Shown here: piece by piece, positions 4,754 to 20,662 of the stretch | How positions within the stretch are numbered: the stretch's first letter is position 1 | Layout of the letters: the number at the start of each line of letters is the position of its first letter | From: a virus | Strand: one strand, 5' to 3' | DNA length: 26,795 nt | IMG/VR virus record: IMGVR_UViG_3300023180_000332 | Coordinates: 1-26,795 of that record | Position numbers and translations under genes: made by a program | The notes under the pieces: model-generated | The model's input: the letters and a program-made list of their open reading frames with translations, nothing else | What the model was told of the DNA's origin: nothing | Database searches by the model: none

Positions 4754-5266
4754 TTAGAAATACATTGTTTTAAAGGATTGTAGTATGTCCTTAGTCTTTA
4801 CAGGCACCTCTGCTACTATAGTTCCAGTTACAAAGTCAGCTCTATAATCATAAAGGCTTGACACTAGGTGTAGTATGGCGTGCTTTACAAGCTCATGAGT
4901 GAGTCCGCTAGTTACATAGGTGACCTTGACCTCTTTAGCTGGTAGGCTCTTTATTTCTACCATAGTATCATCCAGGCCATAGGTGTCATAATCTATAGCA
5001 GTTCCCTCAGAGGTTACTGAGCTGATAGATGCTACTGGTGCAAAAGGCAAAGTAAAACGCTGGTCAACCTCCTGGAGGTAGAATGTTCTATTTTTAGCGA
5101 CTATATCTTTTCCGATATAGTTTTCACACCATTCTCTGGCAGTAGTGATCATTTGATCTATGATAGTATCATCAGCGCTAGTGTCGATGCGCACAAAATC
5201 TTTTACGTTTTGTGTAGTTAATACCTCGCTGCCAGTTACAGAGTTGACCTTAATATCGTGCATCAT
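4754..5266 (-). CDS. Head-tail connector (gp6-like adaptor)
   Basis: This 170-residue protein resembles phage gp6-like head-tail connectors (PF05135). Those proteins form a ring under the portal. The N-terminal part contains V-K-D-F-V-R-I-D and D-D-T-I-I-D-Q-M-I-T-T-A-R-E-W-C-E-N-Y, the alpha-helical core with the usual AR-x-W-x-E pattern. Next comes F-x-L-P-F-A-P-V-A-S-I, then a C-terminal helix, H-A-I-L-H-L-V-x-x-L-Y. Two adjacent ATGs (5266 and 5263) overlap the stop of the upstream lysine-rich gene, so either may be used. Confidence 0.88.
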   Translation of the reverse strand: MMHDIKVNSVTGSEVLTTQNVKDFVRIDTSADDTIIDQMITTAREWCENYIGKDIVAKNRTFYLQEVDQRFTLPFAPVASISSVTSEGTAIDYDTYGLDDTMVEIKSLPAKEVKVTYVTSGLTHELVKHAILHLVSSLYDYRADFVTGTIVAEVPVKTKDILQSFKTMYF

Positions 5267-5460
5267 TTTTTACTTTTAGTTACTCTCTTTTTAGGAGCTT
5301 TGGCCTCTTTGGTTTCTTTTACAGCCTTTTCCTCTTTGTATTCTATAGCTATTCCTTTTCTAATATAGTGCTTTGCTATCTTAGGATCCAGATCAACAAT
5401 GTCACCCTCTTTGCGCCATCCTGGCCCAGAATAGACATCTCTAGTCATTTTGATTTTCAT
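5263..5460 (-). CDS. Small lysine-rich protein at the head-connector junction, unknown
   Basis: A 65-residue protein. I place the start at the ATG at 5460, because an upstream GTG (5499) would extend it into a terminator hairpin. The N-terminal half, with Y-S-G-P-G-W-R-K-E-G-D-I-V-D-L and A-K-H-Y-I-R-K-G-I-A, looks like a small beta barrel or SH3-like fold. The C-terminal half is a low-complexity Lys/Ala/Glu tail ending KKRVTKSKK. Small genes of this type often lie before connector genes in HK97-like phages. A head accessory or decoration role is possible but not shown. It appears to have its own promoter element just upstream. Confidence 0.75.
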   Translation of the reverse strand: MKIKMTRDVYSGPGWRKEGDIVDLDPKIAKHYIRKGIAIEYKEEKAVKETKEAKAPKKRVTKSKK

Positions 5461-5476
5461 ACTATATAATTTACAA

Positions 5477-5484
5477 CAAAGATA
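5477..5484 (-). promoter_or_regulatory. Possible Bacteroidota -7 promoter element before the connector operon
   Basis: On the minus strand the sequence TATCTTTG matches TAnnTTTG exactly and begins in the last T of the preceding terminator's T-run. Transcription would start near 5470, about 10 bases before the ATG at 5460. No TTTG or TTG -33 element is found at 19-21 bases, so this is only a half-match. It would restart transcription of the connector and lysis genes after the terminator. Confidence 0.35.
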
Positions 5485-5514
5485 AAAAAAAAGCGCCACA
5501 GTAATTGTAGCGCT
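5484..5514 (-). terminator. Rho-independent terminator after the endonuclease gene
   Basis: On the minus strand an eight-pair stem AGCGCTAC / GTGGCGCT (one G-U pair) with a seven-base loop is followed at once by nine T residues. It lies 40 bases downstream of the endonuclease stop and directly upstream of the lysine-rich gene. It separates the inserted island from the connector operon. Confidence 0.85.
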
Positions 5515-5553
5515 CTCTCCTTAAACAAACCAAACAAAATTACGATTATGAAA

Positions 5554-5931
5554 TCATTCTTTAAATGCAAAGTTATTAAAATATTTTTTGTTTTTTCCTG
5601 TAAGTGAAACTCTTATAGATTGCATTTTTCCAGTATTTTTAAAAATAAACCAACCATTAAAAAAATCAGACCAGACAGCAAAGTAGTCAATTTTGTCTTT
5701 AGTGTAGTTACGTTTATTGTTTTGTAGGGGAATATGTACGTTTTGCCTGGTTTTACTTTCTGGGGTTTTAGTAGATGATTTTATTTGTACTCTGAGGAGT
5801 CGATCCCCTGTATCCACAATACAGTCGTAAAGGGATGAATCTATAAGAGGCATGGATACCTGGTAATTATTTTTCATGCACTCAGTGGCGAATATGTACT
5901 CCGCCAAACAACCTCTTTGGTTATTATCCAC
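5554..5931 (-). CDS. PD-(D/E)XK endonuclease, group I intron-associated type
   Basis: A 125-residue nuclease resembling the group I intron-encoded PD-(D/E)XK family (PF11645, I-Ssp6803I-like). The N-terminus carries NQRGCLAEYIFA with E11, then S-L-Y-D36-C-I-V, and the core L-R-V-Q49-I-K51-S-S. The Q-x-K in place of E-x-K is usual in this family. No ATG is available in frame upstream: a TAG precedes it at 5956-5958, so the start is the GTG at 5931, placed six residues before the family motif. It is free-standing, with no intron seen nearby, and is flanked by terminators on both sides. Homing endonuclease, resolvase-like and moron roles are all possible. Confidence 0.82.
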   Translation of the reverse strand: MDNNQRGCLAEYIFATECMKNNYQVSMPLIDSSLYDCIVDTGDRLLRVQIKSSTKTPESKTRQNVHIPLQNNKRNYTKDKIDYFAVWSDFFNGWFIFKNTGKMQSIRVSLTGKNKKYFNNFAFKE

Positions 5932-5943
5932 GAAATCAAATCT

Positions 5944-5980
5944 ACGAAAAAAACCCTAAACATATCTCAGTCTAGGGTTT
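5944..5980 (-). terminator. Rho-independent terminator after the small-gene cluster
   Basis: On the minus strand AAACCCTA pairs with TAGGGTTT (eight pairs, loop of 14 bases), followed by a run of T residues. It lies 27 bases after the stop of the 40-residue Cys-rich gene and just before the endonuclease GTG. The sequence TAGATTTG, matching TAnnTTTG, overlaps its downstream edge (5937-5944) and could serve as the endonuclease promoter, giving a nearly leaderless message. Confidence 0.75.
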
Positions 5981-6006
5981 TGCATCAAATGAAAAAAAAC
6001 AAAACT

Positions 6007-6129
6007 TTACAGCATAAATGCCTCAAAACAAGTTGCGCTGCAAATATCATCACCATAACTAGGGCGATCGCAAACCTTGCAATAGCCTCCCTCGTAATCA
6101 TCTGGCGGTGTGTTCGGATAAAATTCCAT
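6007..6129 (-). CDS. 40-residue Cys-rich putative zinc-binding protein
   Basis: A short frame (ATG at 6129, TAA at 6007-6009) starting two bases after the stop of the upstream small gene. The product contains Y-C-K-V-C and, nine residues on, C-S-A-T-C. The resulting C-x2-C / C-x3-C arrangement would suit one zinc ion. The flanking segment D-R-P-S-Y-G-D-D is acidic and polar. It resembles the small zinc-ribbon proteins common in phage accessory regions. The function is unknown. Tight spacing in a run of four tiny genes and the strong terminator that follows support it as a real gene. Confidence 0.6.
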   Translation of the reverse strand: MEFYPNTPPDDYEGGYCKVCDRPSYGDDICSATCFEAFML

Positions 6130-6131
6130 AA

Positions 6132-6272
6132 CTATCTCTTTTTAATTTCCTCTAGCCTATCGGCAAAATCCCATATCTTATCACTAAGATACAAATAATC
6201 TGCTGGCTGCATTTTGCTCACCAGATTCTCAATGCTTTTTAAATAAAAATCGTATGGATCAAGCTCATCCAT
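6132..6272 (-). CDS. 46-residue acidic helical protein, unknown
   Basis: A short frame beginning MDELDPYDFYLKSIENLV with ATG at 6272 and TAG at 6132-6134. It overlaps the end of the upstream membrane-protein gene by eight bases and stops two bases before the next ATG. The residues suggest two amphipathic helices with many Asp and Glu and a few aromatic residues. The small size and acidity are reminiscent of inhibitor-type phage proteins, but there is no specific evidence for that. It belongs to the island between capsid and connector genes. Confidence 0.6.
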   Translation of the reverse strand: MDELDPYDFYLKSIENLVSKMQPADYLYLSDKIWDFADRLEEIKKR

Positions 6273-6411
6273 TGTTATATCGTATTAAGGTGAATGATAT
6301 AGCAAACATTACAAGCGCATCCCATATAGCCTGGAATCTAATGCCCAGGGAAAATCCCCAGGCAATAAATCCCACTATTAAAACAATCCTAACCTTTTGT
6401 TGCAAATTCAT
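6265..6411 (-). CDS. 48-residue two-span membrane protein, unknown
   Basis: A short frame (ATG at 6411, TGA at 6265-6267), starting three bases after the stop of the 53-residue gene upstream. The product starts MNLQQKVRIVLIVGFIAWGF and has two hydrophobic stretches, about residues 8-24 and 30-44, joined by a short loop with Arg and Gln. The second predicted membrane protein in a row in this island, it may act at the envelope, for example in superinfection exclusion. That is inference from location and topology only. Confidence 0.6.
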   Translation of the reverse strand: MNLQQKVRIVLIVGFIAWGFSLGIRFQAIWDALVMFAISFTLIRYNNG

Positions 6412-6414
6412 AAT

Positions 6415-6579
6415 TTATAGATTGTAATGTATGTATAAAAGCAAATCTAAAAATCCATACATAAAAACAAATGCACAGATATTAAATAATAATGCGCCTA
6501 AAATTATTTTAGGTTTTGTCATCTCTCCGATGATTTCCCACTCAGTAGATTGTTTGATTTTTTGAATAATAGTTCTCAT
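6415..6579 (-). CDS. 54-residue single-span membrane protein, unknown
   Basis: The frame is open further upstream to 6630, but that start would lie within the promoter and operator-like sequence. I choose the ATG at 6579, preceded by an A/T-rich leader. The product starts MRTIIQKIKQSTEW and has a charged N-terminal helix, then a hydrophobic region from about residue 25 to the end, including ALLFNICAFVFMYGFL. It is the first gene of the small-gene island and thus closest to the promoter-like element. No family is recognised. Confidence 0.65.
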   Translation of the reverse strand: MRTIIQKIKQSTEWEIIGEMTKPKIILGALLFNICAFVFMYGFLDLLLYIHYNL

Positions 6580-6615
6580 AATTAAAATAGTTTGTTTCCC
6601 CAAATTTAAAGAATT

Positions 6616-6658
6616 ATTTGGAAATTCCAAATATATGGGGAAATTAATTCATTGACAA
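6616..6658 (-). promoter_or_regulatory. Bacteroidota-type promoter with palindromic operator for the small-gene island
   Basis: On the minus strand a TTG (6656-6658) and TATATTTG (6628-6635) are separated by 20 bases, matching the Bacteroidota -33/-7 pattern. The -7 element overlaps a perfect hyphenated palindrome, TTTGGAAATTCCAAA (6617-6631), so a repressor binding there would block the promoter. The 29-base block 6616-6644 recurs at 20634-20662 with three mismatches. The first gene starts at 6579, about 37 bases downstream. Confidence 0.6.
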
Positions 6659-6688
6659 TAAAAAAAGGGTAACCCATAAAGGCTACCC
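6659..6688 (-). terminator. Rho-independent terminator after the capsid gene
   Basis: On the minus strand GGGTAGCC pairs with GGTTACCC (eight pairs, one G-U) around a six-base loop, followed by a T-run. It lies 45 bases after the major capsid stop. It separates the head operon from the small-gene island, whose promoter begins immediately downstream. Confidence 0.85.
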
Positions 6689-6732
6689 TCTTTAATAAAA
6701 TTCTCATACTAAATGAGCTATATTAACTGTGA

Positions 6733-7938
6733 TTAAGCAGTTTCTAGAGCGGCTTTAGCAGTTGAGAAAGTTCCTTGTACAATCGCATTAGGTAGGTAGT
6801 TAGTTAAAGCTACTCTCTCCATTGCTCGTACAGTTACAAAATTCTTTTGGAAATTATCGCTGTCCTCTCTTGAGAACTCTACAGCTAGATTCTCACGAAT
6901 CCAAAGCTGAGATGCTTGGCGTAAATTACCTACAAGAAATTTTCCGCTAGTCACGGCCGTGTTAACCGTCACAGGGATTCCATTGATTGTTGGCTGTAAA
7001 CCGCTAAAGATTTGATTTCTCAAATACTCATTAGCAGTAGATTTCAACAAGATCATTTTGTGTAGATCAGTAGGATTCAAAAGAATTGTATCCGCCTGGT
7101 AGTTAGCTAGTGCTAATTGGTTAAGCGCTACAGTCAATACATCAAACTCATTAGCTGATTCAATAGCTAAAGCGAATCCGCCAGCAGCAAATGCAGTTCC
7201 ATCAGTAAACAATCCATCTAAGTTTGGTGATGATCCATCCCCATTTAAGATTTCATTATCCTCTACAGATAATACTTTTTCTGGAACTCTAGCTGATAGA
7301 TATGATGTTAATTGCTTAATATCATCTAGCATCTCTCCAGTGATTCTCATGTAAGTACCGATTTTCTCGACATTTACAGTAGATGCAGCTAGATCGAAAT
7401 CTGACTGTCCAAATGCAGCAGCCTCAGCAGTAGCAGCAGCTCCATCAGAGTATGCAGTTTCTTTAGGGAAACGGATAGTCTGTGCATCAGTTGATCCTAA
7501 AGGTAGTAAAGAGCGGATATGTACTGAGCGGCTAGGATCGTATTTGATTTGATCTACGATAGTTTCAGCAGCTACAACTCCTGTAACATCAGCACCTAGG
7601 CTCATATCAGCTTTAACCTCGAAACGAGCAGCGTTTGCATTTCCTTTTACCATTGCATCGATTGCGCCATCTTTAAGCGCTCCCTCGATAGCAGCTTTAA
7701 ATGATTTAGGAGTTGCGCCAGCAGCAGTTTTCTTAGCGGCCATTTCCATCTCATCTAATCTCTTGTTAAGAGCATCACTTTTTTCTACATACTGAGTAGT
7801 AAGGTTATCAATCTCTGATTTTAGAGATGATTCCATTTCACCCTTGGCGTTATCTTTCGCCTGGTTAAATGCTTTCTCGATTTTCTCGTCAACAATGTTT
7901 CCGATCTGATCGAGTTGGTTTTTAATTTCGTTGTCCAT
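6733..7938 (-). CDS. Major capsid protein, HK97 fold
   Basis: A 401-residue protein of the phage capsid family (PF05065). Residues 1-75 or so are a charged coiled coil (the scaffolding-like delta domain), followed by an Ala/Lys/Gly linker and the mature domain starting near residue 108. The mature region contains R-S-V-H-I-R-S-L-L-P-L-G, the long P-loop and E-loop region, T-I-L-L-N-P-T-D and the C-terminal A-V-E-F-S-R-E with F-V-T-V-R-A-M-E-R. The upstream gene encodes the protease expected to remove the N-terminal domain. The start is preceded by an A-rich leader and not by a Shine-Dalgarno sequence. A strong terminator follows, as expected for a highly expressed gene. Confidence 0.95.
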   Translation of the reverse strand: MDNEIKNQLDQIGNIVDEKIEKAFNQAKDNAKGEMESSLKSEIDNLTTQYVEKSDALNKRLDEMEMAAKKTAAGATPKSFKAAIEGALKDGAIDAMVKGNANAARFEVKADMSLGADVTGVVAAETIVDQIKYDPSRSVHIRSLLPLGSTDAQTIRFPKETAYSDGAAATAEAAAFGQSDFDLAASTVNVEKIGTYMRITGEMLDDIKQLTSYLSARVPEKVLSVEDNEILNGDGSSPNLDGLFTDGTAFAAGGFALAIESANEFDVLTVALNQLALANYQADTILLNPTDLHKMILLKSTANEYLRNQIFSGLQPTINGIPVTVNTAVTSGKFLVGNLRQASQLWIRENLAVEFSREDSDNFQKNFVTVRAMERVALTNYLPNAIVQGTFSTAKAALETA

Positions 7939-8647: not shown

Positions 8648-8839
8648 TTAATTAAAAAATTTATCCTCCTCAGACTGGCCCTCCTCAAAAACTATATTGT
8701 TTTTTTGATCTGGTAGTGGAGCATCATGTATATTGTCCAATAGTATTGTTTCTGGTATTCCCTCCTTAAAAGCATTGCATCCTCCTGTTATTGGTTTAAA
8801 ATGTTTGCATTTTTCGCAAATCAAATCTTTTGTTGTCAT
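8648..8839 (-). CDS. Small Cys-rich protein between head genes, unknown
   Basis: A 63-residue protein. Its ATG overlaps the TGA of the MuF-type gene (ATGA). The N-terminal half contains C8-E-K-C11 and G-G-C21-N-A-F-K-E-G-I-P-E, a C-x2-C then C pattern suited to a small zinc or disulphide-stabilised knot. The C-terminal half is acidic, with K-N-N-I-V-F-E. Similar small genes with the G-C-x-A-F-x-x-GIP pattern occur between portal or head-morphogenesis genes and the protease in many phages. I recall no experimental role. Confidence 0.75.
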   Translation of the reverse strand: MTTKDLICEKCKHFKPITGGCNAFKEGIPETILLDNIHDAPLPDQKNNIVFEEGQSEEDKFFN

Positions 8840-10545
8840 TTTTTAAAATATTTGTTTACTAATTCACCCACCAACCTAGCATATTTGCTGGGATTTGATT
8901 TTAATTCATATTCAGTAAAGCACTCTGCCAAAAACTCATCTAAATTAGTACTGGCATAGGATCCCATATATGTTTCACTAAAAGCCTTTACATTTCCTGT
9001 ATCTAAGTATTTATCTATATCCTCAAAATACTGTTTACGGATTGCCTCTAATTCTTTATAAAATTCTGCATCTATAACATTTCTGCGATCTGATATAATA
9101 TGGGCAAACTCATGAGTGACTGTAGATATTACATTATTTTCTGGATCAACTGGCGATTTAAAGGTTTTTTTGAATTTATCATAATTTAGATTCCTAGATC
9201 TAGTTTCAGCACTATCAGTTCTATCGCCAAAATTGATTCTATGCAGCTTGTTTGCTGGTCCAGAGAAATATCGCCTTTCTACAAACCCATACATCCTTTT
9301 AGAGGATTTAAATATTAATTTTACTGGTGTATTTACATTCCCAGGAGTTTTAACATTATATTTATTTGTAAGTTTATTGATCTGCTTTAAATATTGATTC
9401 AAGGTATCAATACTTATAGTCCTAGAAATTGTTACAGATTGTATATTAATATCAGATTTAGAAAATATTTTAGTAGCTAAATCTTTTGCCTCTTTAACTG
9501 TTTTAACATCTTTAAAATCATCTACAACCTCCACAGCCTCTCTAACTGGCTTTGGCGTTCTAAGTACACTCTGAGTTGATCCTCCTGGAGGTCGCACTCC
9601 AAATCCCTCTATAGTTCCAGCAGCCTGTGCATCCTCTTTAGGAAATGGCGCTACAGAGCATCTACATCTAACCACATTTTTAGCACTACCAGCTGGATCC
9701 CCTGGATGAAATAATAACTCGCCACCTACTAAAAACCTTTCTTTAAAATCTACTATCTGAGCATCAGCTGCTCTATGAGCTGGGCGCTCTCTGCCATCTA
9801 CAGATGTCATCCATTCCTTTTGTAGATTTTCCTGGCCAAACATATCAGTAGCACTTTCCAGCGTTGCATAGTTAGCAGCATTAGTGGCCTCAGTTCTTAC
9901 TAATCGCTCTGCCTGGCTCTTAGAATACTGTCCAAACTTTTGGCGTAATATGCGGCCAGCCTCTACCTCGCCCATAGCCATAAACTCTGGATCAGAGGAC
10001 AGGCGTTTAAATATACTAATCAGAGTAGCCTTAGCTGTACCCTGTACCAGCACTACTCTCTCTGCTGCTATTTGCTGGCTTACTCTAGCAAAGCGTTCCG
10101 CCCAGATGTCATCATATCCAGATACATCTGTTTGCTTAGAGATTACCTTGTCAAAATTCTTAGAATACCATTTAGCGAACTTGAGGCCTATGTTCACATA
10201 GATCTGGCGATAGATCTCAGACAAATCTGCTGATCTAAATAGGTTATCAAAACCATTGCTTTTTCCTGTCTTTAGAAAATTTGCTATAGCCTCACTGTAT
10301 TGGCCCTCATAGTATTTACGAACTCCAGCAAATTCTTTGCGCTCTGAGCTAGCTAGGAGTTTATCAAAATTACCTTTCCAGGATTCTTTGGCTTTCTTTA
10401 TGATTGTTTTTTGATCATATAAGGAATAACAAACAGCCACACGCTGCTCATTAGTTCCAAAATCAGCCTGGATCTCTGGATTAATTACACAGCGGCTAAT
10501 AAACTCGCTGCGACTCTCATTTGCTCTGGGTTTTGGTAATGGCAT
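8836..10545 (-). CDS. MuF-type minor head protein fused to a zincin-like domain
   Basis: A 569-residue protein. The N-terminus (P-L-P-K-P-R-x-N-E with S-R-C and Q-R-V-A-V-C-Y-S) is a short module often found on phage head proteins. The central region, about 90-310, matches the Mu F / SPP1 gp7 family (PF04233): R-T-E-A-T-N-A-A-N-Y, then R-E-R-P-A-H-R-A-A-D, F-H-P-G-D-P-A-G and V-V-R-C-R-C-S-V-A-P. The C-terminal domain, from about 340, has H478-E-F-A-H482, an HExxH zinc-peptidase motif. Further on comes N-L-D-E537-F-L-A-E541-C-F-T-E-Y, a plausible third ligand. MuF proteins are packaged with or near the DNA and are known to carry toxin or enzyme domains. The target of this one is unknown. Confidence 0.88.
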   Translation of the reverse strand: MPLPKPRANESRSEFISRCVINPEIQADFGTNEQRVAVCYSLYDQKTIIKKAKESWKGNFDKLLASSERKEFAGVRKYYEGQYSEAIANFLKTGKSNGFDNLFRSADLSEIYRQIYVNIGLKFAKWYSKNFDKVISKQTDVSGYDDIWAERFARVSQQIAAERVVLVQGTAKATLISIFKRLSSDPEFMAMGEVEAGRILRQKFGQYSKSQAERLVRTEATNAANYATLESATDMFGQENLQKEWMTSVDGRERPAHRAADAQIVDFKERFLVGGELLFHPGDPAGSAKNVVRCRCSVAPFPKEDAQAAGTIEGFGVRPPGGSTQSVLRTPKPVREAVEVVDDFKDVKTVKEAKDLATKIFSKSDINIQSVTISRTISIDTLNQYLKQINKLTNKYNVKTPGNVNTPVKLIFKSSKRMYGFVERRYFSGPANKLHRINFGDRTDSAETRSRNLNYDKFKKTFKSPVDPENNVISTVTHEFAHIISDRRNVIDAEFYKELEAIRKQYFEDIDKYLDTGNVKAFSETYMGSYASTNLDEFLAECFTEYELKSNPSKYARLVGELVNKYFKK

Positions 10546-14070: not shown

Positions 14071-14205
14071 TTAATTCCACCTAAATGAGATGCCAATAAT
14101 AAAAATGTAGATGTCTATGCTTTTCATTGTGTGATCCTCAAATGAGTTTAGATACTCTACACCTACACAAAATCCCATCAAAGGATAAATTTGGATCTCA
14201 GTCAT
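14071..14205 (-). CDS. 44-residue hydrophobic protein, unknown
   Basis: I place this gene at the ATG at 14205 (in frame with a longer open stretch) because the ATG overlaps the end of the upstream nuclease gene by eight bases and fits the gap. The product begins MTEIQIYPLMGFCVGVEY, and its second half (S-I-D-I-Y-I-F-I-I-G-I-S-F) alternates in a strongly hydrophobic beta-like pattern. Small proteins of this kind commonly precede terminase genes in phages of Bacteroidota. It ends one base before the terminase small ATG. Function unknown. Confidence 0.6.
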   Translation of the reverse strand: MTEIQIYPLMGFCVGVEYLNSFEDHTMKSIDIYIFIIGISFRWN

Positions 14206-14929
14206 TTTTGAGTTTATTATACAAAAATAGATAAAAATCCCAGATAGCTTGCTGATAGTTTTTAGGATCATGCAGTTTGTTTGTTGTATGGGCCTGGCCA
14301 TCAACTACATATACCAGAATAAACTTACCATTTCTAGGTTTAGGATAGATTCGGATTCCATTCTCATCGCACCATTTAAATGCTTTATAGTGATCCTCCT
14401 GGGTGTTTACTAATGGCTGTTTATATTGCTGTTTTCTAGGCATATCTTTTAGAATTTTAAATGTTTGTATTGGCTCCAATTCTTTATTAGGCACAAATAC
14501 TGTAGCGCCATGGCCATATTCTTTTAGTTTATGATTATTGTCTATGTATCCCCTGGTAGTATGTCCTATTATTTCTAGGGCATTATCCCTGTACCAGGTT
14601 AGTATATAATACTCAGCGTGTTTACGTTTATACTGAGTGACAGGAAACATTAGGTTTGGCTTGTTTTTACTATCAGAGCATTTTACCTGGATGCTATAGT
14701 CAAAATCAGTTCCATCATCACCTCCATAGGTAAAATATTCCATTTTTAAACCGCTGTATTTTTCAAATCCTATTTCTCCTAGAGCGCCTATGTAACCTCT
14801 ATGAACATGATCTTTATTTTTAAAAAAGTTTTGGCTATTTATTGTTTCATCAAAACCGACACTAGCGTGTCTGCCCACTGCTACAAACCTGGCCAATATG
14901 TGATCTCGCTGTGTTAGATTTATAATCAT
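14198..14929 (-). CDS. PD-(D/E)XK-like nuclease, unknown specificity
   Basis: A 243-residue protein with a restriction-endonuclease-like core in the first third: G-A-L-G-E52-I-G-F-E-K-Y, then G-T-D75-F-D, then S-I-Q81-V-K83-C. This gives the E...D...Q-x-K layout of PD-(D/E)XK enzymes. The remainder is rich in aromatic and basic residues, including A-E-Y-Y-I-L-T-W-Y. A possible role is resolving or trimming branched DNA before packaging, or attack on competing DNA. It lies between the primase-helicase and the terminase genes, starting one base before the former's stop. I do not recognise a named family. Confidence 0.72.
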   Translation of the reverse strand: MIINLTQRDHILARFVAVGRHASVGFDETINSQNFFKNKDHVHRGYIGALGEIGFEKYSGLKMEYFTYGGDDGTDFDYSIQVKCSDSKNKPNLMFPVTQYKRKHAEYYILTWYRDNALEIIGHTTRGYIDNNHKLKEYGHGATVFVPNKELEPIQTFKILKDMPRKQQYKQPLVNTQEDHYKAFKWCDENGIRIYPKPRNGKFILVYVVDGQAHTTNKLHDPKNYQQAIWDFYLFLYNKLKND

Positions 14930-19564: not shown

Positions 19565-20076
19565 AATTTAAATTTATTTAATATTTGATTTTTGTACTCA
19601 GTTTTCATTTGGTAGTCAGCGAGTACTTTTTCTGACTGTTTTTTAGTGCCTTTTTCTAAAAGCAGTTTTAACTCAGTTTCTTTAAGCCAGGGCCGCTCAT
19701 CTTTTTTCTGGTTAGCTATTGCATTAGATACCTCCTCAGCTGATGCTACAGATGTATCAATACCTATTCCTAAAAGTCCTAATGCTCTACCTATTGCTGA
19801 TGTTTCACAGTTCTCGATAAATGATGTTTTATTTATGTAGCTGCTGCCCATATACTCCTCAGCGTGACCAGTTGCTCTGATCATTTTATTTTCATCAAAG
19901 ATTACAGCTCTAAACTGCACCAGGCGATCCTTTTTTGTTTGGCACACCTCATCTTTAATTTTGATAGTTTCGATTCCCCATTTCTCGTATTTTTTCTGGG
20001 AATGAAAATAGCTAATGCGTTCATTGACCTGGACATACTCTTTGCCCTTAATGTTAATTGTTGGTAGTTTACTCAT
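19561..20076 (-). CDS. Putative single-strand annealing recombinase
   Basis: This 171-residue protein has a core with Y-F-H-S-Q-K-K-Y, F-R-A-V-I-F-D and the segment E-N-C-E-T-S-A-I-G-R-A-L-G-L-L-G-I-G. That last pattern is shared by phage proteins in annealing and recombination cassettes, including Rad52/ERF-like groups, though I cannot say which. The C-terminal third is charged and helical. Genes of this class sit beside a 5'-3' exonuclease and an SSB, as here. The starting ATG overlaps the HTH stop by four bases. A DNA-binding role is likely. The specific recombinase family is uncertain. Confidence 0.55.
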   Translation of the reverse strand: MSKLPTINIKGKEYVQVNERISYFHSQKKYEKWGIETIKIKDEVCQTKKDRLVQFRAVIFDENKMIRATGHAEEYMGSSYINKTSFIENCETSAIGRALGLLGIGIDTSVASAEEVSNAIANQKKDERPWLKETELKLLLEKGTKKQSEKVLADYQMKTEYKNQILNKFKL

Positions 20077-20264
20077 AATTCTAGGTTATTTAAGTTTAGT
20101 TTTAATTCTTTGAGCTTAATCAGCTCTGCATAAGTAAAGCGCCCAGGATCCTGGAGTTTTCTCTTTAGCGTTTCATAGGAAAATCCTAAATGATCCGCCA
20201 CATCTAACCTCCTAAGTCCTAGGCGTTTTATCTCGTTTACAAATTCTAATTCTAGGTTATTCAT
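20073..20264 (-). CDS. Small helix-turn-helix protein, possible regulator
   Basis: A 63-residue protein whose central part, L-R-R-L-D-V-A-D-H-L-G-F-S-Y-E-T-L-K-R-K-L, fits a helix-turn-helix motif of the XRE or Fis-like type. The recognition helix would be S-Y-E-T-L-K-R-K-L. It is small for a repressor with a sensor domain, so it probably acts as a simple DNA binder or subunit. It heads the HTH-annealing-SSB unit, and a strong terminator lies just upstream of its start. The 15-base direct repeats at its beginning and end may be binding sites or a trace of duplication. Confidence 0.65.
   Translation of the reverse strand: MNNLELEFVNEIKRLGLRRLDVADHLGFSYETLKRKLQDPGRFTYAELIKLKELKLNLNNLEL
20076..20090. 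repeat. 15-base direct repeat, copy 1
   Basis: The sequence TAATTCTAGGTTATT on the plus strand at 20076-20090 is identical to 20247-20261, 171 bases away. The two copies flank the HTH gene and encode N-N-L-E-L near its N-terminus and C-terminus. Confidence 0.75.
20247..20261. repeat. 15-base direct repeat, copy 2
   Basis: Identical to 20076-20090. It overlaps codons 2-6 of the HTH gene, just after its ATG. Confidence 0.75.
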
Positions 20265-20267
20265 ATA

Positions 20268-20295
20268 TAAAAAATGTAGGGGAGTTGCCTCCCCT
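20268..20295 (-). terminator. Rho-independent terminator with GCAA tetraloop, just before the HTH gene
   Basis: On the minus strand AGGGGAG pairs with CTCCCCT (seven pairs) around the GNRA tetraloop GCAA, followed by ACATTTTTT. It lies seven bases downstream of the stop of the 95-residue gene. The HTH ATG is only about four bases beyond the T-run, so expression of that unit probably depends on read-through or a promoter overlapping the hairpin. Confidence 0.85.
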
Positions 20296-20301
20296 GGGTT
20301 A

Positions 20302-20589
20302 TTATTTACCTACTATTTTTAATCTATTATTAATAAAATCAGCTTTATAATTTAATTTACTGAAATAAATAGCATCATCTAAAAATTCTTTTAACATATA
20401 GGTGCCATCAGATGATCCAAAACCTTGATCAGAATTTCTATAGTCATCAGTCCAATCTATAGCTATTGATGTAGCTATTTTAATCAAATCTTTTTCATTG
20501 ATTTGAGATTTAATCTGCGACCAATTATCCATTGATTCAGCTCTAAATATTAATGTTTCTGGCTCTACTAAAAAATTGTAATCTATCAT
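20302..20589 (-). CDS. 95-residue protein, first gene of the early region, unknown
   Basis: A mixed alpha/beta protein with acidic stretches (E-P-E-T-L-I-F-R-A-E-S-M-D-N-W, then A-I-D-W-T-D-D-Y-R-N-S-D-Q-G-F-G-S-S-D). No motif is recognised. The gene is flanked by a terminator on each side, and its upstream gap contains a 29-base block shared with the promoter-operator region of the small-gene island. Standing alone behind a regulatory motif suggests an early or regulated gene, but its function is unknown. Confidence 0.7.
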   Translation of the reverse strand: MIDYNFLVEPETLIFRAESMDNWSQIKSQINEKDLIKIATSIAIDWTDDYRNSDQGFGSSDGTYMLKEFLDDAIYFSKLNYKADFINNRLKIVGK

Positions 20590-20633
20590 AATTTCTGGTT
20601 TGTTATTGTTTTACTCTGTAAAATTACTCAAAT

Positions 20634-20662
20634 ATTTGGAATTTCCTAATATATGTGGAAAT
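20634..20662 (-). promoter_or_regulatory. Operator-like motif shared with the small-gene island
   Basis: This 29-base block matches 6616-6644 at 26 of 29 positions. It contains the partial palindrome TTTGGAATTTCCTAA and the -7-like TATATTAG (minus strand), but no clear -33 element. It lies about 45 bases upstream of the 95-residue gene. A common phage regulator acting on both units is the simplest reading. Confidence 0.55.

Follow-up and report, generated by a model that had tools for sequence, protein, structure and literature searches.

A block between the capsid and connector genes of a marine phage is probably a second early operon under the phage's Cro/Xre-like regulator

Results

Organization of the block and its small genes

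The window, i.e., the whole stretch of DNA analysed here, is the 26,795-base virus record IMGVR_UViG_3300023180_000332 of a marine phage, in which all major genes lie on the minus strand (as do the parts of the block, its neighbours and the early-operon features located below). Between the stop of the capsid gene (6733) and a small head gene at 5460, it contains a terminator, a promoter-operator, four small genes, a second terminator, a PD-(D/E)XK endonuclease gene and a third terminator, in this order. The upstream neighbour of this block (the island) encodes a major capsid protein of the HK97 fold family (6733-7938; PF05065, E=3e-40; phrog_10, major head protein). Terminator 1 (6662-6693) ends the capsid transcript, terminator 2 (about 5943-5981) ends the small-gene transcript, and terminator 3 (5483-5523) follows the endonuclease gene, each being a hairpin with a T-tract. 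Right behind terminator 3 lies the −7-like box TATCTTTG (5477-5484), which is kept in nearly all junctions and is probably the restart promoter for the connector operon. It stands ahead of a conserved 65-aa head gene (5263-5460) located between the island and the downstream neighbour, a gp6-like head-tail connector gene (4754-5266; PF05135, E=2.5e-8). Every part of the block listed in the original prediction is thus present on the minus strand, with conserved terminators and small frames, and the sequence bears out its description of a self-contained, insulated unit in which accessory-type genes have a promoter-operator of their own.

Small gene 1 (6415-6579), encoding a 54-aa protein with one predicted membrane segment, is the fastest evolving of the four (mean identity 56%, median dN/dS 0.32) and is swapped among relatives by mosaic exchange. 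Small gene 2 (6265-6411; median dN/dS 0.18) forms the conserved core; its 48-aa product has two hydrophobic segments, with F15, W18, D31 and M35 invariant across distant relatives. Small gene 3 (6132-6272; median dN/dS 0.24) overlaps gene 2 by 8 bp and encodes an acidic protein of 46 aa, and small gene 4 (6007-6129; median dN/dS 0.15) encodes a 40-aa protein whose four cysteines (C-x2-C-x9-C-x3-C), invariant even in distant relatives, suggest that it is probably zinc-binding. All four genes are under purifying selection (compare median dN/dS values of 0.10 for the endonuclease and 0.08 for the capsid). The original prediction could have failed on the conservation of these frames at the protein level; all four are conserved, and they are therefore real genes. 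Searches of Pfam, PHROGs and PADLOC matched none of the small proteins to a family of known function, small gene 2 found no match in cultured phages, and no regulator gene was detected among the island genes using Pfam and PHROGs.

The block is a fixed feature of the junction

A capsid search of viral contigs returned 56 loci, among which 37 distinct contigs span the junction from capsid to connector. The block, including all three terminators, occurs in each of these 37, and a hairpin with a T-tract is found in each of the three gaps in all 37 junctions, although the sequences diverge. The arrangement is more than chance, because the terminators recur in all of these divergent relatives and the proteins of the four small frames are conserved. 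No empty site was found among the 37 distinct junction-spanning relatives; the plain capsid-connector order appears with a very remote capsid (24%; L057). The comparison of relatives that had been suggested for this junction revealed the variable cargo that it sought (described below) and no relative devoid of the block. As far as presence or absence goes, this is the outcome that the original prediction had itself named as refuting it, and the recent acquisition expected of a moron, with absence from some close relatives, is not what we observe. Judged from these sequences, the block is not a recent or mobile insertion. Capsid relatives were absent from the bacterial genomes searched, which thereby identified neither a host nor a prophage, and cultured phages include no close relatives (the capsid is at most 34% identical and the primase 38%).

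The endonuclease occupies a single site

The 125-aa endonuclease gene (5554-5931, GTG start), isolated by terminators on both sides, matches PDDEXK_5 (PF11645, E=6e-12) and 2OST (E=7e-6). Together with this family profile, the catalytic residues E11, D36, Q49 and K51, invariant in an alignment of relatives, assign it to the PDDEXK_5/I-Ssp6803I type. In the window and most close relatives, its GTG start lies ~5 nt past a TAGATTTG/TAGCTTTG box (5923-5940), and the endonuclease mRNA would be leaderless if this box were the promoter. We considered TAGCTTTG for this function; the box is missing in several relatives, and promoters of F. johnsoniae hardly ever have a G at that −7 position (PMC6847099).

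The membership in the I-Ssp6803I family (2OST), with all four catalytic residues invariant, raises the question of a homing-endonuclease island, in which the free-standing enzyme would retain the block and, through cleavage of alleles devoid of it, spread both the block and its flanks. Mosaic junctions, pointing to frequent local recombination, would suit such a process, as would one relative (L046) whose enzyme is nearer to that of the window (77%) than its capsid (73%) or connector (59%). However, a profile search identified about 70 endonuclease relatives, reaching down to 41% identity, and wherever the contig includes the flanks, the gene order runs from the capsid through the small genes and the endonuclease to the connector; none of them was seen at a different site, and alleles devoid of the gene were not found. 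Rather than the occupied and empty alleles at more than one site that characterize homing, there is a single site and no empty allele, and homing has no substrate because empty alleles are lacking. The median dN/dS of the enzyme equals that of structural genes, and the decay typical of homing cycles is not seen. The one-site distribution speaks against active homing, and the constant neighbours of the gene argue against the earlier suggestion that the endonuclease mobilised the block. We consider a homing island unlikely; the enzyme may once have been a homing enzyme. It shares the fold family and catalytic residues of I-Ssp6803I, but unlike the latter it is free-standing, outside any intron and syntenic in all relatives, with no evidence of homing.

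The island promoter-operator matches the early promoter of its own genome

The promoter-operator of the island (6595-6643) contains a dyad. The promoter itself (6601-6631) consists of a −33 TTTG (6628-6631), a 19-nt spacer and the −7 element TAAATTTG (6601-6608), and belongs to the Bacteroidetes TTTG-N19-TAnnTTTG type, with three such matches in the window; the published consensus is TTTG/TANNTTTG (PMC6847099). The palindrome TTTGGAATTTCCAAA (6617-6631), with outer arms TTTCCCC/GGGGAAA, covers the −33 box. The sigma-70 promoter class was rejected, as its scan gave no more hits than in shuffled sequences and it is the wrong class for the host group.

A partner copy, identical at 34 of 45 bases, lies at 20614-20661 and directly precedes the early (replication) operon. 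In 13 genomes, we compared the early promoter with every other position on both strands, ungapped over 45 bases. Situated 76-96 nt beyond the stop of the capsid gene in all 13, the island promoter is the best match to the early promoter of its own genome in 13/13: none of about 40,000-67,000 other positions is better in 12 genomes, and in the remaining one (G004), just one position scores better, namely its second island copy. Every pair entered the pairing statistics in the same way, with its best match inside a 100-nt stretch. Own-genome pairs share a mean of 30.9 of the 45 bases vs 26.3 for cross-genome pairs (permutation p=5e-5), and the pairing is also detected within the nine close genomes (permutation p=0.0015). 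Among more distant genomes, G021 supports it (p<=0.002) and G020 does so weakly (p=0.09), and no island operon of such layout is evident in G022.

The original prediction, in which the layout fitted a moron, had missed that the island promoter-operator duplicates the early promoter of the phage in matched form. With this match, the block looks like a built-in second early operon rather than a hitch-hiking element. A classical moron would be a horizontally gained cassette, expressed autonomously (e.g., in lysogeny) and untied to the phage regulator. The island resembles morons of the HK97/HK022 type in being a set of small accessory-type genes with their own promoter and terminators amid phage genes, and its first-slot cargo is variable. 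Unlike these morons, it is fixed in all relatives, with no empty site, and tied to the early promoter type of the phage, and its core genes are under purifying selection. As 12 related records yielded no tyrosine integrase, there is no sign of lysogeny, and expression of the island in lysogeny finds no support. We therefore give the moron reading little credence. A structural or lysis role, in which the small membrane proteins would be expressed late, alongside the head genes, and act like holins or in virion assembly, is just as improbable: the location amid head genes and the pair of hydrophobic proteins, in one of which an invariant Asp sits beside or inside a hydrophobic segment, would be compatible with it, but the terminators on both sides cut the small genes off from the late transcript, the promoter is of the early type, and a separate candidate holin/endopeptidase pair, judged from its sequence, is located at 2126-2954.

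Operator type and the recognition helix of a 63-aa regulator change together

Close relatives carry one of two operator types, GGAA-N-TTCC (type 1) or TGTAAA...TTTGCA (type 2). On the capsid tree, the operator type changes 7 times, at least 5 of these on well-supported branches, and it clusters no more than shuffled labels do. In all nine close genomes holding both loci, the island type equals the type of the early promoter and that of a 63-aa Cro/Xre-like helix-turn-helix (HTH) protein encoded in the early operon (20073-20264; phrog_4583 repressor, E=2e-4). It contains SY[E/D]TLKRK in type-1 genomes and TY[P/Y/A]TLR[S/T]K in type-2 genomes. Exactly five alignment columns (23, 29, 31, 34 and 35) split the two types, whereas ~25 other variable columns do not, and all five fall within the HTH, mostly in its recognition helix. 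In the AlphaFold2 model of the protein (pLDDT 86), helices 19-26 and 30-38 form the HTH, and Foldseek relates the model to the CapH, 434 and P2 C repressors (probability 0.9-0.99, with weak E-values), consistent with an Xre/434-type fold in the predicted structure. We found no other HTH_3-type match able to replace this regulator.

Recognition-helix residues thus change with the operator sequence, in few independent events: on the capsid tree, an independent-pairs test yields one or two contrasts from the nine genomes and no significance, and the covariation draws on these few events and on the residue-level match. We propose that the 63-aa protein binds both operators. Repression, rather than activation, would be its mode of action, because the palindrome lies over the −33 box and the fold is repressor-like. 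Although both promoters hold the host consensus boxes TTTG/TAnnTTTG and a 49% A+T-rich 45-mer can match moderately by chance, the notion that they are alike simply as two strong Bacteroidetes promoters in AT-rich DNA, with no common regulator, is very improbable, given that the best match is unique genome-wide in 13/13 genomes and that the likeness extends to the −33 palindrome, which is outside the consensus and varies with the genome and the HTH type.

Two observations concern the regulator gene itself. A hairpin with a T-tract, AGGGGAGGCAACTCCCCTACATTTTTT (20271-20300), is located between the early leader and HTH genes and kept in nearly all close relatives; it is a possible attenuator limiting regulator synthesis. 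In one genome (G006, L197:2808-3482), the HTH gene is frameshifted and continues into the next gene, reflecting either an assembly error or a broken regulator.

Operators are exchanged as cassettes, and the two leader slots share cargo

In the mosaic junction of L013, the capsid end is close to L008 (97%), the operator to the window (97%), small gene 1 again to L008 (99%), and the part beyond small gene 1 to L006/L018 (96-100%). Similarly, L023 carries a type-2 operator (94% to L008) inside a junction otherwise like L028/L016. From these two mosaics, we conclude that a ~100-bp cassette carries the operator between phages. More distant relatives have other genes in the first slot of the island and a longer block. 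The corresponding position of the early operon, occupied in the window by a 95-aa leader gene (20302-20589), is likewise a variable cargo slot, holding several unrelated genes over eleven close and distant genomes. The two slots share cargo: the 92-aa island cargo of L040 resembles the early leader gene of G011/G013/G014 (61%), and the 83-aa island cargo of L056 resembles that of G019 (67%). The shared cargo genes have no match in cultured phages, and Pfam, PHROGs and PADLOC assign no function to the alternative cargo.

Discussion

The promoter pairing, the recognition-helix covariation, the cassette exchange and the shared cargo together support the view that the block is probably a second early operon, located amid the head genes and governed by the phage's Cro/Xre-like regulator. 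In this model, the island promoter-operator would be a copy of the early (replication) promoter and a target of the same 63-aa HTH protein. Upon DNA entry, host RNA polymerase would fire both promoters, and the small membrane, acidic and zinc-binding proteins would be produced early, while the three terminators would separate the small-gene unit and the endonuclease from the strong late head transcript. Being encoded in the early operon, the HTH protein would then build up and shut both promoters in a Cro-like manner, with late transcription to follow. The first slot of the island would be a cargo position that the main early operon shares through its leader slot, and the cargo there would most likely meet host defence or competing phages. 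We infer the timing, solely from promoter identity, as well as the binding and repression by the HTH protein and the counter-defence or exclusion role, from the sequences.

In layout, the closest analogue appears to be the immI region of P22 (mnt-arc-ant, sieA), between late genes 16 and 9, which lies within the late operon, is largely unread by the late message and variable, and holds immunity and exclusion genes (PMC8022706). As in immI, the island looks like an insulated early-type unit inside a late structural operon. However, it has no repressor or antirepressor genes of its own: immI has its own repressors (Mnt, Arc), whereas the island operator is a copy of the one at the main early operon. 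P22, moreover, is temperate, whereas no integrase was found in this phage group, and the likeness drawn here is one of layout. For the co-varying sites and DNA-binding domain, the best analogue may be the cluster A mycobacteriophages, whose repressor has many sites that vary in sequence between phages together with its DNA-binding domain (PMC6550527). Those sites are mostly promoter-free stoperators of a lysogeny repressor, whereas the phages here, apparently lytic, have two promoter-embedded sites per genome and a tiny protein of Cro size.

It is quite possible, if somewhat short of likely, that these features extend across the lineage as a split early regulon of flavobacterial phages that appear to be lytic, in which a Cro-sized regulator would control two distant early operons, one of them amid the head genes; the operator type, the recognition helix and both promoters would move together as an immunity-like type without lysogeny, and counter-defence genes would shuttle between the two leader slots. 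An apparent accessory insertion would thereby become a regulatory rule, namely that a copy of the early promoter marks early accessory genes. Looking downstream of a second early-promoter copy could then point, from sequence alone, to likely counter-defence or host-takeover genes of Bacteroidetes phages that are uncultivated. The model also raises the question of why matched operator/regulator specificities and cassette exchange, as in temperate immunity types, occur without a visible lysogeny module.

Further observations in the window and its relatives

G004 (51,221 bases; L208, L209, L189) contains two different capsid-island copies about 33 kb apart, owing either to a chimeric assembly of two related phages or to a tandem arrangement. 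Elsewhere in the window, a 243-aa protein is encoded between the primase-helicase and terminase small subunit genes (14198-14929); its N-terminal half reads PD-(D/E)XK-like (GE...DFDYSIQVKCS), without a Pfam family, and several relatives match no more than about a third of its length. The head morphogenesis protein (Mu F-like) at 8836-10545 carries a C-terminal zinc-metallopeptidase-like domain (PF15890, E=2e-4).
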